The notes below the pieces were generated by a model, which was not told the DNA's origin, did not search any database, and was given only the letters and a program-made list of their open reading frames with translations. From Oceanobacillus senegalensis (GTDB taxonomy: Bacteria > Bacillota > Bacilli > Bacillales > Amphibacillaceae): a stretch of 64,000 nucleotides of DNA. This document shows, piece by piece, positions 59,959-63,942 of the stretch; within the stretch, counting starts at the first letter, position 1, and every line of letters begins with the position of its first letter. Location of the stretch: positions 833,049 through 897,048 of the forward strand of contig NZ_LT839648.1 in NCBI RefSeq assembly GCF_900176885.1. Reading direction: 5' to 3'. Both the position numbers and the translations under genes were made by a program.

Positions 59959-60579
59959 ATGTTACATATATATTTTGTTAGACATGGTGAAACAGAATGG
60001 AATAGAGAAAGCCGCTTACAAGGTCGTTTAGATTCTCCTTTAACAGTAAAAGGGATACAGGATGCAAAGCAACTAGGAGAACGATTAAAGCCAATAAATT
60101 TCCAGCAAATAATATCTAGCCCGAGTGAGAGAGCGGTTAAAACAGCGAGATTACTAATTGAAAATCGCAGTTTACCTTTTAAAACAGATAAAAGACTGAT
60201 GGAGATTGATTTAGGGAGCTGGCAGGGGAAAACGATTAAGGAAATTAGAAAAGAAGATCCAACTACATATAATCAGTATATCCATTATCCCCATTTATAT
60301 GATAAACAGGATGGGGAAACAATAAGAGATGTTCAATTTAGGATAAGATGCTTTTTGAAGAATCTTGAAAAGGTATATACGGCAGGTGATGTCCTAGTAA
60401 TTACACATGGAGTTGTTATAAAGGTGTTACAAAGTCTATGTAAAAATATTTCCCTCCAAAGAGTATGGGAGCCACCGGAGATTGATGGAACCAGTGTGAC
60501 AATTGTTCAATTAACTAATGGAAATAAAAAGCTTCTTTTAGAAGGAGATACTTCACATAAAAATCATATAGTAACATAA
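59959..60579 (+). CDS. Histidine phosphatase, second CobC-like candidate
   Basis: A 206-residue protein with the RHG motif YFVRHGETEWN and THGVVIKVL near the C-terminus; SSPSERAVKTARLL is also typical. It lies 11 nt after cblS and has GGAGG upstream, so it belongs to the cobalamin transcript. It could dephosphorylate alpha-ribazole phosphate or adenosylcobalamin phosphate. Which of the two phosphatases (the other is at 57731) serves B12 synthesis cannot be decided from sequence. Confidence 0.8.
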   Translation: MLHIYFVRHGETEWNRESRLQGRLDSPLTVKGIQDAKQLGERLKPINFQQIISSPSERAVKTARLLIENRSLPFKTDKRLMEIDLGSWQGKTIKEIRKEDPTTYNQYIHYPHLYDKQDGETIRDVQFRIRCFLKNLEKVYTAGDVLVITHGVVIKVLQSLCKNISLQRVWEPPEIDGTSVTIVQLTNGNKKLLLEGDTSHKNHIVT

Positions 60580-60650
60580 ATAAGAAAAATAAAGTAGAAT
60601 TACAAAGCCTTGGGACGCAAGTATGATGGGATTTCTTGTGTTTCAAGTTT

Positions 60651-60706
60651 TTTATCGCAGGTTAAGGGGCAGTAATAACCCCATTGATTAAAGATTCACT
60701 TTATGG
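60651..60706 (+). repeat. Intergenic repeat, copy C (short form)
   Basis: TTTATCGCAGGTTAAGGGGC followed by AGTAATAACCCCATTGATT and AAAGATTCACTTTATGG. The GGGG/CCCC pair forms a small hairpin. It lacks the long middle section found in copies A and B and lies after the cobalamin operon. The 304-base gap 60580-60883 holds nothing else I can identify. Confidence 0.8.
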
Positions 60707-60883
60707 CGTTAAATAATATAGGATGTGCAAGTTTTAGTTGTGCGCGATGTTTTCATTGCCGACTGTCGCGGTCCATAAAAAGGTACGGTTTTAGCCTTCT
60801 CAAAGAAATCCCCCTTCATGCATGAAAAAATGGGATTAGCTTAAAAATAAGATATATTCCGATTGTGGAGGGGGTGACTGAAT

Positions 60884-61237
60884 ATGCGCTTCTTAAATAG
60901 TGTTGCATTAACATTGATTATTATTGGTGCTATTAACTGGGGGCTTATTGCGTTTTTTCAATTCGATTTGGTTGCTGCGCTTTTTGGAGGACAAGATGGC
61001 TTTTTAGCGAGAGTGGTTTATGGATTAGTCGGTATTAGTGGGCTATATTATCTTACAAGAGCTATATATCCAATAGGTGACAATCCAGCGAATCGTCCGG
61101 ACCTGAATACGGGGAAATTGAATTATGGAACGGAATTTGGAGAAGAGGAGACCGATATAGATAACCCATCGGCACATTCATTGCAGACATCTGAACAATT
61201 TAAAAGACCAACAGGACATCATTATAAAGAGGATTAA
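60884..61237 (+). CDS. DUF378 small membrane protein
   Basis: A 117-residue protein. The first 65 residues hold two membrane segments with the DUF378 signature NSVALTLIIIGAINWGLIAF and GLVGISGLYYLTR; the rest is a hydrophilic tail. Function unknown; related to B. subtilis YuzA. GGAGGGGGTG lies before the ATG. A terminator and another copy of the intergenic repeat follow. Confidence 0.82.
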   Translation: MRFLNSVALTLIIIGAINWGLIAFFQFDLVAALFGGQDGFLARVVYGLVGISGLYYLTRAIYPIGDNPANRPDLNTGKLNYGTEFGEEETDIDNPSAHSLQTSEQFKRPTGHHYKED

Positions 61238-61240
61238 TTT

Positions 61241-61269
61241 AAAAGCCCAGTGTACAACTGGGTTTTATT
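61241..61269 (+). terminator. Terminator of the DUF378 gene
   Basis: AAAAGCCCAGT pairs with ACTGGGTTTT around a short loop, followed by T-rich sequence that runs into repeat copy D. Confidence 0.75.
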
Positions 61270-61324
61270 TATCGCTGATTAAGGGACACTAATACCACCA
61301 CTGATTTAAGATTCTCTTTATTTG
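61268..61324 (+). repeat. Intergenic repeat, copy D (short, divergent)
   Basis: TTTATCGCTGATTAAGGGAC, then ACTAATACCACCACTGATTT and AAGATTCTCTTTATT. It is the most divergent copy but keeps all segments of copy C in order. Confidence 0.65.
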
Positions 61325-61397
61325 ATGGAATGATACCTTATATATAAAGGGTGTGGGGAATTCTAAACGAAATAGAAGTCTAAATCTAGTTTTTTAA

Positions 61398-61406
61398 TGG
61401 TATACT
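61398..61406 (+). promoter_or_regulatory. Extended -10 promoter of the toxin RNA
   Basis: TGGTATACT at 61398-61406 is an extended -10 element. The transcript would start near 61413, just before the inverted repeat CAATGACCGA at 61416-61425. A matching element faces it on the other strand at 61724-61732. Confidence 0.55.
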
Positions 61407-61415
61407 AGTAAATAG

Positions 61416-61666
61416 CAATGACCGACTTCTCAGGGGGACGGCTTTAACTCCTAAAACCGATTTTGATATGTTGCGATGTCAGTTCGGAAGGGGGTGAGGC
61501 CTTTGGACGATTCTACCTATCAAGTTCTAAATTTACTTTTTCTGTTTGGAACATTGATAGTAATGATTATGTCCAATAAAGATTAAGAGACCTCCTCTGA
61601 GTTGGCTGCTCGTAATTGGGAGATCCCTATTATGTGAGTCGTCCCCTTGATGGGGATCGGTCATTG
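61416..61666. repeat. Inverted repeats bracketing the toxin gene
   Basis: CAATGACCGA (61416-61425) pairs with TCGGTCATTG (61657-61666), and TCAGGGGGACGGCT (61430-61443) pairs with AGTCGTCCCCTTGA (61637-61650) with one G-U and one mismatch. They would join the 5' end of the mRNA to its 3' part, as in type I toxin mRNAs that are kept untranslated. Confidence 0.7.
61503..61586 (+). CDS. 27-residue membrane toxin-like peptide (type I toxin/holin-like)
   Basis: A tiny protein starting with TTG at 61503: MDDSTYQVLNLLFLFGTLIV, then MIMSNKD. It has one hydrophobic span and a charged end, matching the holin-like toxins and TxpA/BsrG-type peptides of Firmicutes. GGGGGTGAGG at 61490-61499 is a strong binding site 3 nt upstream. 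The mRNA has 5'-3' complementary ends and a terminator, and a facing promoter could make an antisense RNA. Identification as a toxin is inference from these features. Confidence 0.72.
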   Translation: MDDSTYQVLNLLFLFGTLIVMIMSNKD

Positions 61667-61717
61667 TGAAACGTTCCATGTTAAGTCATGGAACGTTTTT
61701 TATTTTATGTCCCTAGC
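61600..61717 (-). ncRNA. Possible antisense antitoxin RNA
   Basis: On the minus strand TGGTATACT at 61732-61724 is an extended -10 element, the same as that of the toxin. The RNA would start near 61717, pass the hairpin at 61669-61706 and be complementary to the 3' part of the toxin mRNA. The 3' end is not defined; the coordinates given are approximate. No experimental evidence is available here. Confidence 0.45.
61669..61706. terminator. Terminator of the toxin transcript
   Basis: AAACGTTCCATG pairs with CATGGAACGTTT around a 6-nt loop, followed by TTTTATTTT on the + strand. On the minus strand only a short T-run follows. Confidence 0.85.
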
Positions 61718-61732
61718 ACCTATAGTATACCA

Positions 61733-62066
61733 TTTTTTAAAAAGTTAAGCTGCTTTTGTATATTTTCATGCTTTATTCTCCATTAAAGCTAATACTTCAT
61801 AATGGTTTGAATTGATTTTTACAAAAAGCTATAGCATATTTCCCTAGCGGTAGTTACAACAATAGAGTTGTGTCCCCATTTACATAGATAAAAATCAAAT
61901 ATGGATTGAATTATCAACCCTAATTCTCGAGTGAAACATAATTGTAATATCTTTATAACAATTATGTTATTTAGAAATGATATACTTCAAAAGCAATAGA
62001 TTTGAAATATTAAAGTTACTAGGTAATATAGCAAAATATAATTTTTTTAAAGGAAGCAGGGAAAAA
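61733..62066. other. Gene-free region upstream of the cell wall protein gene
   Basis: AT-rich, no RNA element recognised. ATTGTAATATCTTTATAACAA near 61940-61963 is loosely similar to a paired WalR site (TGTWAH-N5-TGTWAH), but only one half is good. A c-di-AMP (ydaO) riboswitch was looked for and not found. Confidence 0.3.
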
Positions 62067-63173
62067 ATGCGTTATAAAATGACTATCTTTACCTTTGCTT
62101 TAGCCTTAATAATAGGATTTACATACTTTGACTCTTACGTCTATGCAGATACAAATCAGGATATAAAGCAGATTCAAAATGAGCGTAAGGATATTAAAGG
62201 TAATATAGCGGAAGCAGAGGAAAAAGTATCAAATATATTATCGGAAATAAAATCCTTGAATAACGAGATTAAACAAGTTAATCAAGAATTAATAGAAAAA
62301 CAAGAAGAAATAGATCATACACAGGAAGATATTGATAGATTAATAGAAGAAATCAATGTACTTCAGGATGAAATCAAAGAGTTAGAACAAAGCATTAATG
62401 AACGATATGAAATTTTGAGGGATAGAATCTCATCCTACCAGCATTCTGGTGGTTCGGTTAATTACTTGGAAGTAATTTTTGGATCGGAAAGTTTTAGTGA
62501 TTTTATTAGCCGTGTAACAACTGTTAATAAAATTGTAGAATCAGATGCATCATTAATGGAACAGCTTGAGCGTGATATAGAGAAGGTAGAAAAAAATAAG
62601 GTCGATTCTGTAGAAAAACTTGATTTGCTAAATGCGAAAAAATTAGAGCAAGAAGCGGCAATGAAGGTTATGGAAGAAAAGAAGAGGTTGAATGAACAAA
62701 AGAAAGCCACATTAGAAAGTAAGAAAAAAGAGATTACATCATTGGTGAAAGAATTGAAAACGAAAGATAGCAATTTAGCATCATTAGAAGCAGATATTAA
62801 GGAAAGCTTGAAACCAGACAAGCAACAAGCTAGTCAAACAGTTAAGAAGGTACAAGAAAATTCCAATAAACAGGAGAATAAAGACAAAGAGACGTTTACT
62901 GTTACTGCTACTGCCTATACAGTTAGTAGTGCTGGTGGTTCAGGAATAACATATACTGGAATTAATTTAAGAAAAAATCCAAATGCCAAAGTTATTGCTG
63001 TTGATCCAAGTGTGATACCTTTAGGGTCTGTTGTACATGTAGAAGGATATGGCTATGCTGTAGCAGGTGATATTGGTGGTGCTATTAATGGTAAAAAGAT
63101 TGATGTTTTTGTTCCTAACCAAAAAGCAGCAATGAATTGGGGAGTCCGAACCGTTAAAGTTACTATTCAATAA
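62067..63173 (+). CDS. Coiled-coil/3D-domain cell wall protein
   Basis: A 368-residue secreted protein. A signal peptide (about residues 1-28, ending YVYA) is followed by a long coiled coil (about residues 30-260) like the CwlO/PcsB N-terminal domain, including the SVNYLEVIFGSESFSDFISR segment. The C-terminus is a 3D domain with AVDPSVIPLGSVVHVEGYG and the last DIGGAINGKKIDVF, the lytic transglycosylase-like fold with three conserved aspartates. It should cleave or bind peptidoglycan. The ATG at 62067 (with AGGG upstream) is preferred over an earlier frame without a signal peptide. A terminator follows. Confidence 0.85.
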   Translation: MRYKMTIFTFALALIIGFTYFDSYVYADTNQDIKQIQNERKDIKGNIAEAEEKVSNILSEIKSLNNEIKQVNQELIEKQEEIDHTQEDIDRLIEEINVLQDEIKELEQSINERYEILRDRISSYQHSGGSVNYLEVIFGSESFSDFISRVTTVNKIVESDASLMEQLERDIEKVEKNKVDSVEKLDLLNAKKLEQEAAMKVMEEKKRLNEQKKATLESKKKEITSLVKELKTKDSNLASLEADIKESLKPDKQQASQTVKKVQENSNKQENKDKETFTVTATAYTVSSAGGSGITYTGINLRKNPNAKVIAVDPSVIPLGSVVHVEGYGYAVAGDIGGAINGKKIDVFVPNQKAAMNWGVRTVKVTIQ

Positions 63174-63194
63174 AAGAAAAAGTTTAATAGCAAT

Positions 63195-63254
63195 AAAAAC
63201 TGCACCGTAATTGCTGAATAAATTTTTAGCAATTATAGGTGCAGTTTTTTGTTT
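63195..63254 (+). terminator. Terminator of the 3D-domain protein gene
   Basis: AAAACTGCACC and TAATTGCT pair with AGCAATTA and GGTGCAGTTTTTT, giving a long interrupted stem with T-run. Confidence 0.85.
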
Positions 63255-63345
63255 TATGTTTTTATTTAATATTTGAATGTAGTAAAAAAAGTGATATTGC
63301 TATAGATTTTAGGCGACCATTTCAAAGTTGCCTTTTGGATTCTAA

Positions 63346-63942
63346 TTAATCAATAGCAGATAATTCATCTTCTACCACCCATTTATGATTGGTAACCTTT
63401 TTATCGGTAATTGTTGATACATAATTAATCATATATACCGTTGTTTTATTTATGGAGTTAATGGTTGCTGTTGCACCTCTCATACCCTTCATGTGATCTG
63501 CTTCTAATATTACTTCTTCTCCAATTGAAAAAGGATGCTTGTCGGCTCCTTTTATTTCTTCATGGATAACCCACTTATGGTTGGATATTTTACCTTCACC
63601 AGTTGTGGGAATAAAGGATACGGTATATGCAATCGTGTCGTATGCACCAACAATGGTTGCTTTGGCACCTTCCATACCAGCTTTATGTGCTGTATGTATA
63701 TAAGCTTTACTACCAATTTGGAAAGTTGGATTTGCAGCTACCCTTAACCCCTTAGGAATGATTTCATCCATAACGGAATCGTTTTTTTCCACTTTTATTT
63801 CATTTGAATTTTTAACATTAGTAATATTTACTTCGGATGGTTGACTCGCATTCTCCCTCTCCGTATTACTATTTTCACAAGCCGATACAGTTAAAATAGT
63901 GAAAATAGCTATAAATCCAATAAAGGCATATTTCCAAGACAT
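63346..63942 (-). CDS. ydhK: YdhK-like lipoprotein (two DUF1541 domains)
   Basis: A 198-residue lipoprotein with lipobox LTVSAC at residue 17-22. Two tandem DUF1541 domains follow, each with HxxGMxGAxATI (HKAGMEGAKATIVGA and HMKGMRGATATINSI) and ending SNHKWVIHEE/TNHKWVVEDE. Function unknown; B. subtilis YdhK has the same layout. GGGAGGAG lies before the ATG. It is the last gene in the window and is transcribed toward the 3D-domain gene. Confidence 0.85.
   Translation of the reverse strand: MSWKYAFIGFIAIFTILTVSACENSNTERENASQPSEVNITNVKNSNEIKVEKNDSVMDEIIPKGLRVAANPTFQIGSKAYIHTAHKAGMEGAKATIVGAYDTIAYTVSFIPTTGEGKISNHKWVIHEEIKGADKHPFSIGEEVILEADHMKGMRGATATINSINKTTVYMINYVSTITDKKVTNHKWVVEDELSAID

Follow-up and report, generated by a model that had tools for sequence, protein, structure and literature searches.

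The window analysed here, a 64,000-nt stretch of Oceanobacillus senegalensis DNA, holds at positions 61396-61734 (+ and - strands) a compact element composed of a short putative toxin ORF, two pairing arms, a terminator and an inward-facing extended -10 promoter on each strand. The element sits between a DUF378 gene (60884-61237) and a gene for a PcsB-coiled-coil/3D-domain protein, the start of which lies near 61977 or, more likely, at the ATG at 62067. The first-pass annotation had described a hydrophobic 27-residue ORF with a strong ribosome site, repeats that pair the mRNA ends, a terminator and facing extended -10 promoters, all of which are present. It had also placed the locus at 61396..61733, which stands except that the right repeat reaches 61734, one base further. 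This outermost inverted repeat, AATGGTATACTA (61396-61407 / 61723-61734), is matched at 12/12 positions. The extended -10 promoter TGGTATACT is found at 61398..61406 on the + strand and, as the putative antisense promoter, at 61724..61732 on the - strand, 29 nt past the terminator stem. A clear -35 is not seen at either TGGTATACT promoter and, since the promoter scan demands a -35 hexamer, both are absent from its output.

The toxin mRNA would start near 61412-61414. The predicted 5' arm of a helix of 11 + 4 + 10 bp that closes the molecule is located at 61415..61439 (+) and its 3' arm at 61641..61667 (+), both arms being derived from the fold and from inverted repeats, namely CAATGACCGA (61416-61425 / 61657-61666), matched at 10/10 positions, and TCAGGGGGACGGCT (61430-61443 / 61637-61650), matched at 86%. 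A predicted ribosome-site hairpin (61440..61501, +) is formed by the pairs 61448-61452/61490-61494 and 61440-61446/61495-61501 and encloses the Shine-Dalgarno region AAGGGGGTGAGG (61488..61499, +), with a mean paired probability of 0.82 over 61488-61500. It is followed by the ORF MDDSTYQVLNLLFLFGTLIVMIMSNKD (61503..61586, +), with 27 codons from TTG and the stop codon at 61584-61586, the peptide of which is compared with Hol_Tox below. Both the terminator scan and the fold give a 13-bp intrinsic terminator for the toxin mRNA (61668..61699, +), with perfect arms at 61669-61680 / 61687-61698 (12/12), which is one of 4 in the region 60000-63500 when both strands are scanned and 1.6 are expected. 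On the - strand, an antisense (antitoxin) RNA of ~130 nt would be expected at 61587..61717, approximate at both ends and able to pair with the mRNA over its 3' part; a terminator-like stem with a weak U-run lies at 61587..61627 (-), where 61587-61595 pairs with 61619-61627, read leftwards. The homology, the ORF, the predicted fold, the terminator and the consensus promoters are thus evident from the sequence.

In Rfam, the only family matching the element at E <= 0.01 is RF01412 (BsrG). Its covariance model is matched over the whole length (1-259) at 61415..61694 (+), with 40 bits and an E-value of 4.3e-8 in 551 nt, or 7.9e-8 genome-wide, and misses the curated cut-off of 55 bits, a gathering score which is a database threshold and not a biological trait. 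An nhmmer profile made from 113 relatives, with the window element excluded, recovers the element with 61.2 bits (E 1.4e-18) as the sole match at E <= 10 in the 64-kb window, and a 5-sequence profile also finds it (E 1.1e-14). The encoded peptide scores 23.1 bits (E 6.8e-5) against the Pfam family PF16935 (Hol_Tox), which has a curated cut-off of 23.3. With these Hol_Tox, BsrG and profile matches, the initial proposal, a holin-like type I toxin-antitoxin locus, is the best reading. The accompanying view that no named system has such a layout finds no support, given that the mRNA fits the BsrG RNA end to end and that 5'/3' pairing and facing promoters recur in relatives. Judged by homology, the locus belongs to the type I toxin-antitoxin systems of the BsrG/BsrE family, as a well-formed but ordinary and diverged example.

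Copies in relatives, for which a search had been suggested, were found both by DNA similarity and by family scans. A DNA search of 58 genomes gave matches in 7 at E <= 0.001, the genome of origin included, and the best other match spans the 3' part, the terminator and the antisense promoter. Among the 8 other loci that the DNA comparison yielded, L009 (62.2 bits) and L011 (60.3 bits) score above the BsrG cut-off. In the genome of origin, RF01412 has six matches at E <= 10, of which three reach E < 0.01, namely C4:94292 (59.6 bits), the window element (40 bits) and C4:74108 (21.5 bits). The stronger copy, L024 (C4:94292-94582; 59.6 bits), encodes a 37-aa peptide and is flanked by two similar ~145-aa SMI1/KNR4-like ORFs and an IS3-type transposase pair, named by reading. 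For the comparisons that follow, 114 elements were assembled, consisting of the window element, L009, L011, L024, L026, 29 of 30 loci from the family scan (L040, cut by a contig end, was left out) and 80 further best matches; as they are drawn from the best matches, percentages over the 114 describe strong members of the family rather than a random sample.

The RNA is common in related genomes. In the taxonomic family, 148 of the 159 genomes have an RF01412 match at E <= 0.01, which is above the cut-off in 110 of them; in the order, the RNA is detected at E <= 0.001 in 286 of the 397 genomes drawn, 182 of which are above the cut-off; in both scans, B. subtilis was the only one of 14 control genomes to be matched. 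A 2019 review (PMC6562991) places txpA/bsrG-like systems in one Paenibacillus and a small number of Bacillus species, and bsrE/bsrH-like systems in Bacillus, Lactobacillus, Halobacillus and Enterococcus, and a literature search pairing 'type I toxin-antitoxin' with Oceanobacillus returned no publication. The locus itself matters little, being one further diverged copy of a known kind; what the genome scans reveal is how widespread BsrG-type RNAs are.

The reading frame of the peptide is also open from an ATG at 61476, which would give 36 aa according to the ORF listing. The TTG at 61503 was taken as the start because it has the spacing of the relatives, 6 nt after GGTG, as for the ATG of L009. 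Peptides were picked mechanically, which yielded an ORF from 111 of the 114 elements, with a few (L182, L222, L232) clearly in wrong frames; a stricter ORF filter was passed by 88 elements, and these 88 underlie the codon and U-run counts. In L011:1366-1431 the toxin frame no longer has the stop codon of the family and, counted from its ATG, is open over 65 codons. Many relatives' peptides share a pattern like MTVFETLVLMISFGTLIVAILSxxKK, and the pattern of the window peptide is one that we take to be BsrE-like. The peptides most similar to it, judged by eye, are those of L009, L186, L246 and L248. Its best 17-residue stretch has a hydropathy of 2.38, and its C-terminus reads NKD, where many relatives end in a double lysine. 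Substitutions between 274 pairs of the 88 ORFs, differing by 5-30%, fall on codon positions 1, 2 and 3 in proportions of 31/11/58%, as would be expected of a constrained peptide, with the reservation that the pairs are not independent and that RNA folding also constrains these ORFs. The window peptide has no match in plasmid records at E <= 1, and in PHROGs it matches only phrog_9488, a family of unknown function (E 0.001).

Folding of the mRNA, one of the checks proposed with the original description, gave a structure far more stable than chance. The predicted RNA (61408-61708) folds at -126 kcal/mol, compared with -75.7 +/- 4.9 kcal/mol in 100 shuffles (z -10.3). The minimum-energy fold joins the ends of this RNA through the 11 + 4 + 10 bp and pairs CTCCT with the ribosome-site GGGGG, the mean pairing probability being 0.82 for the ribosome site and 0.90 for the start codon. 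The predicted 5'/3' end pairing and the hairpin-held ribosome site are as in the BsrG family. Across the 114 loci, the mean score of the closing-helix arms is 17.15 for arms of the same locus, 12.89 when arms are swapped between loci and 10.97 when they are shuffled, and the 5' strands of the helix comprise 70 distinct sequences. The helix thus seems to be kept while its letters change, since own-locus arms score above swapped and shuffled ones and the 5' strands are so diverse. The window element, with an arm score of 25.5, ranks third highest of the 114. Minimum free energy folds contain at least 10 closing pairs in 112 of 114 elements (mean 24.3), compared with 15 of 40 shuffled elements (mean 8.75), which is a weaker control for the closing helix. 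A consensus fold (RNAalifold) of 45 elements out of the 114, aligned with MAFFT, recovers the Shine-Dalgarno hairpin and the terminator; for 10 of its 16 pairs, one or more sequences carry changes in both partners. The closing helix is missing from the consensus of these 45 elements, in an alignment whose 5' ends look out of register.

The facing arrangement of the promoters also appears to be a family trait. A sense -10 site with a score of at least 7 lies directly upstream in 97 elements (86% of 113), at -16 to -11 in 91 of the 97 and at -14 in the window element. On the antisense strand, a -10 site with a score of at least 6.5 occurs in the 80 nt downstream of 63 of the 114 loci (55%). The share is 4-6% in four control windows, with 6% for the opposite strand, 5-6% farther downstream and 4% for the upstream side, and it is 11% in shuffled sequence; the remaining 45% of the 114 loci are without an antisense -10 of score 6.5. 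Most of these sites (53 of 63) occur 26-40 nt past the terminator stem; at 29 nt, the putative antisense promoter of the window element lies within this family range and is directed towards the 3' end of the mRNA. The first-pass annotation had stressed that the two promoters are identical. Their facing position recurs in relatives, but their identity as a special feature does not stand out from chance. The exact 12-nt promoter repeat is the longest among the 114 loci; nevertheless, the mean longest repeat is 6.61 within loci and 6.63 between loci, and 12 nt are reached by 0.57% of 3000 random swapped pairs, so that about 0.65 such cases would be expected. Promoter identity as a functional signal was rejected, as chance resemblance between consensus-like sites accounts for it.

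The antisense stretch 61560-61716 folds at a z of -4.6 and its terminator stem is present. Its U-run of 6/9 is the lowest of the 88, tied with L189, while 71 of the 88 have 8 and 15 have 7. In view of this U-run, the TTG start and the NKD end, the antisense RNA might extend into the ORF, or this might be a copy in decay.

Taking these features together, the locus is very probably a type I toxin-antitoxin module of the chromosome, a homologue of bsrG/SR4 and bsrE/SR5, in which a membrane peptide would be controlled by antisense RNA; transcription, antisense action and toxicity at this locus are proposed by analogy. The extended -10 promoter would produce an mRNA of ~290 nt for a 27-residue, single-span membrane peptide, the translation of which would be poor owing to the pairing of the mRNA ends and to the ribosome site being held in a hairpin. 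The facing promoter past the terminator would give an antisense RNA of ~130 nt over the 3' part of the mRNA and, as with SR4 and SR5, the resulting duplex would be cut and the mRNA would decay. If the antisense RNA fell short, the peptide would enter the membrane and harm the cell. In the B. subtilis systems studied, according to PMC6562991, the antitoxins bind the 3' end of the toxin mRNA over 100-140 bp and promote its decay, bsrG/SR4 combines 3'-end antisense pairing with a sequestered ribosome site, SR4 adds to the stem around the ribosome site, making it 8 bp instead of 4, and the mRNA and antisense folds of bsrE/SR5 are strikingly similar to those of bsrG/SR4.

With regard to known systems, the closest comparison is with bsrG/SR4 of the B. 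subtilis prophage SPbeta, a comparison made through the RF01412 model and the published description. Both would have a short membrane toxin, an antisense RNA to the mRNA 3' end and a sequestered ribosome site. The window locus differs in being chromosomal and set between genes, in its 27-aa peptide and TTG start, and in scoring 40 bits against the cut-off of 55. Compared by description, bsrE/SR5 and bsrH are reported to have similar mRNA and antisense folds, the host of the window locus being Oceanobacillus, and txpA/RatA consists of a small toxin with a 3'-overlapping antisense RNA (PMC6562991). Control of txpA/RatA is reported to act through decay only. The ComI peptides resemble the window peptide in length (28-30 aa, with 27 in the window), whereas their reported role is competence inhibition (PMC5503854).

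As far as scanned, the element seems to be lineage-specific at this site and to occupy a variable slot. The nearest named relatives of the DUF378 protein are in Oceanobacillus halophilus (73%) and O. salinisoli (69%), in a search which may omit records very near the window's own genome. Both neighbours are kept in these two species, the 3D protein at 53% and 61%, respectively (L060, L061), and between them lie genes named by reading as GGDEF/EAL-type in O. halophilus and peptidase-type in O. salinisoli, with no BsrG match between the DUF378 and 3D genes of either. As other genes fill the slot, an exact empty site is not definable. None of the 8 named loci has a BsrG match in flanks of up to 4 kb; two of these, L060 and L061, come from the same genomes as L141 and L142. 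Of 24 congeners searched, 4 were without a DUF378 match, and an RF01412 scan of the other 20 DUF378 loci with 1.5-kb flanks detected no element at the place that it has here, which is the basis for regarding the placement as lineage-specific. One partial BsrG match (L160:1-215; 29.3 bits), truncated where the locus ends, is the sole one in the 20 congeneric loci and lies ~1.3 kb from DUF378 in the opposite orientation. The surroundings also contain a dispersed ~57-nt repeat (TTTATCGC.GGTTAAGGGGCAGTAATA...TGATTAAAGATTCACTTTATGG), present in the window at 60648-60704 and 61265-61321, the latter copy directly upstream of the toxin element, and as split copies at 2220-2256/2382-2409 and 3577-3607/3696-3721, with halves about 90-130 nt apart. 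At E <= 1e-4 this repeat has at least 41 occurrences in the genome, query included, with 40 of 131 candidates scored.

Several other explanations of the element were weighed. It might be a decaying copy, still recognisable, in which a poor start codon and a weak antitoxin terminator leave no working pair. The TTG start, an antisense U-run (6/9) tied for the lowest of the 88, Hol_Tox and BsrG scores that are both below the curated cut-offs and the lack of an equivalent at this position in the 20 scanned loci of congeners are all consistent with decay. However, the ORF is open with the family spacing, the terminator arms are perfect, the closing helix ranks third of 114, the fold has a z of -10.3 and both promoters are at family positions, which makes decay an unlikely, though still sizeable, alternative. 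The perfect 12-nt terminal repeat and the absence beside DUF378 at the corresponding place in 20 congeneric loci would also suit a small MITE-like transposable element, the 12-bp terminal inverted repeats of which happened to be promoters. Such an element would be expected to leave near-identical copies, and their absence from the genome strongly disfavours this reading: no second DNA copy was found, the other 35 matches at E <= 10 being at most 30 nt, and relatives are without such repeats, the 12 nt of the window being the maximum of the 114. Its probability is minimal, and the transposon reading was rejected on the single copy and on the relatives' lack of terminal repeats. A role as a cis-regulator of the downstream PcsB/3D-domain gene was also considered, against which stands the terminator between the element and that gene.

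A further alternative arises from ComI, since the peptide could act on the DNA-uptake machinery as a competence inhibitor instead of as a general membrane toxin. The 28-aa ComI peptide of B. licheniformis matches Hol_Tox (E 1.3e-9), and a 30-aa 'putative holin-like toxin' of the plasmid pBS32 (L259:9918-10195) lies inside an end-to-end RF01412 match of 33.9 bits, below the cut-off; this locus is also found by nhmmer (E 4.1e-14). From its size and plasmid, we take the pBS32 peptide to be comI. Nonetheless, the promoter scan revealed no good promoter at either family position of the pBS32 locus, which counts against a simple equation of ComI with BsrG, and the window peptide scores only 13.8 bits against the NCBIfam ComI model NF052249, with a cut-off of 55 that B. 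licheniformis ComI itself misses (35.3 bits). In B. licheniformis, deletion or overexpression of ComI changed transformability two- to threefold (PMC5503854); the words 'toxin' and 'antisense' are both absent from the main text of that paper. ComI is not named in the type I toxin-antitoxin review (PMC6562991), the word 'antitoxin' is absent from PMC10601692, the relevant passages of which do not treat ComI as a toxin, and a literature search joining ComI with 'type I toxin' yielded one paper, in which both terms are confined to the reference list. On this evidence, a ComI-like function of the window peptide seems improbable in comparison with the type I module.

The sequence comparisons suggest that the ComI and BsrG/BsrE peptides form one family. 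At E <= 10, B. licheniformis ComI matches 499 plasmid records, 485 of which are below 60% identity, and 19 phage records. It would be a bold extension, to which we attach little weight, that ComI and BsrG/BsrE are one family in which many chromosomal loci, including that of the window, chiefly act on DNA uptake or membrane energy, as switches gated by RNA and not as suicide modules. An RNA fold common to ComI would make the general function of these peptides testable. RF01412 is matched in all 4 ComI-matching loci examined, from three plasmids and one phage, with 69.9-119.1 bits. In the Brevibacillus phage SecTim467, a skipping-rope RNA (L263:890-967; 67.6 bits) lies ~450 nt upstream of the BsrG element (119.1 bits).
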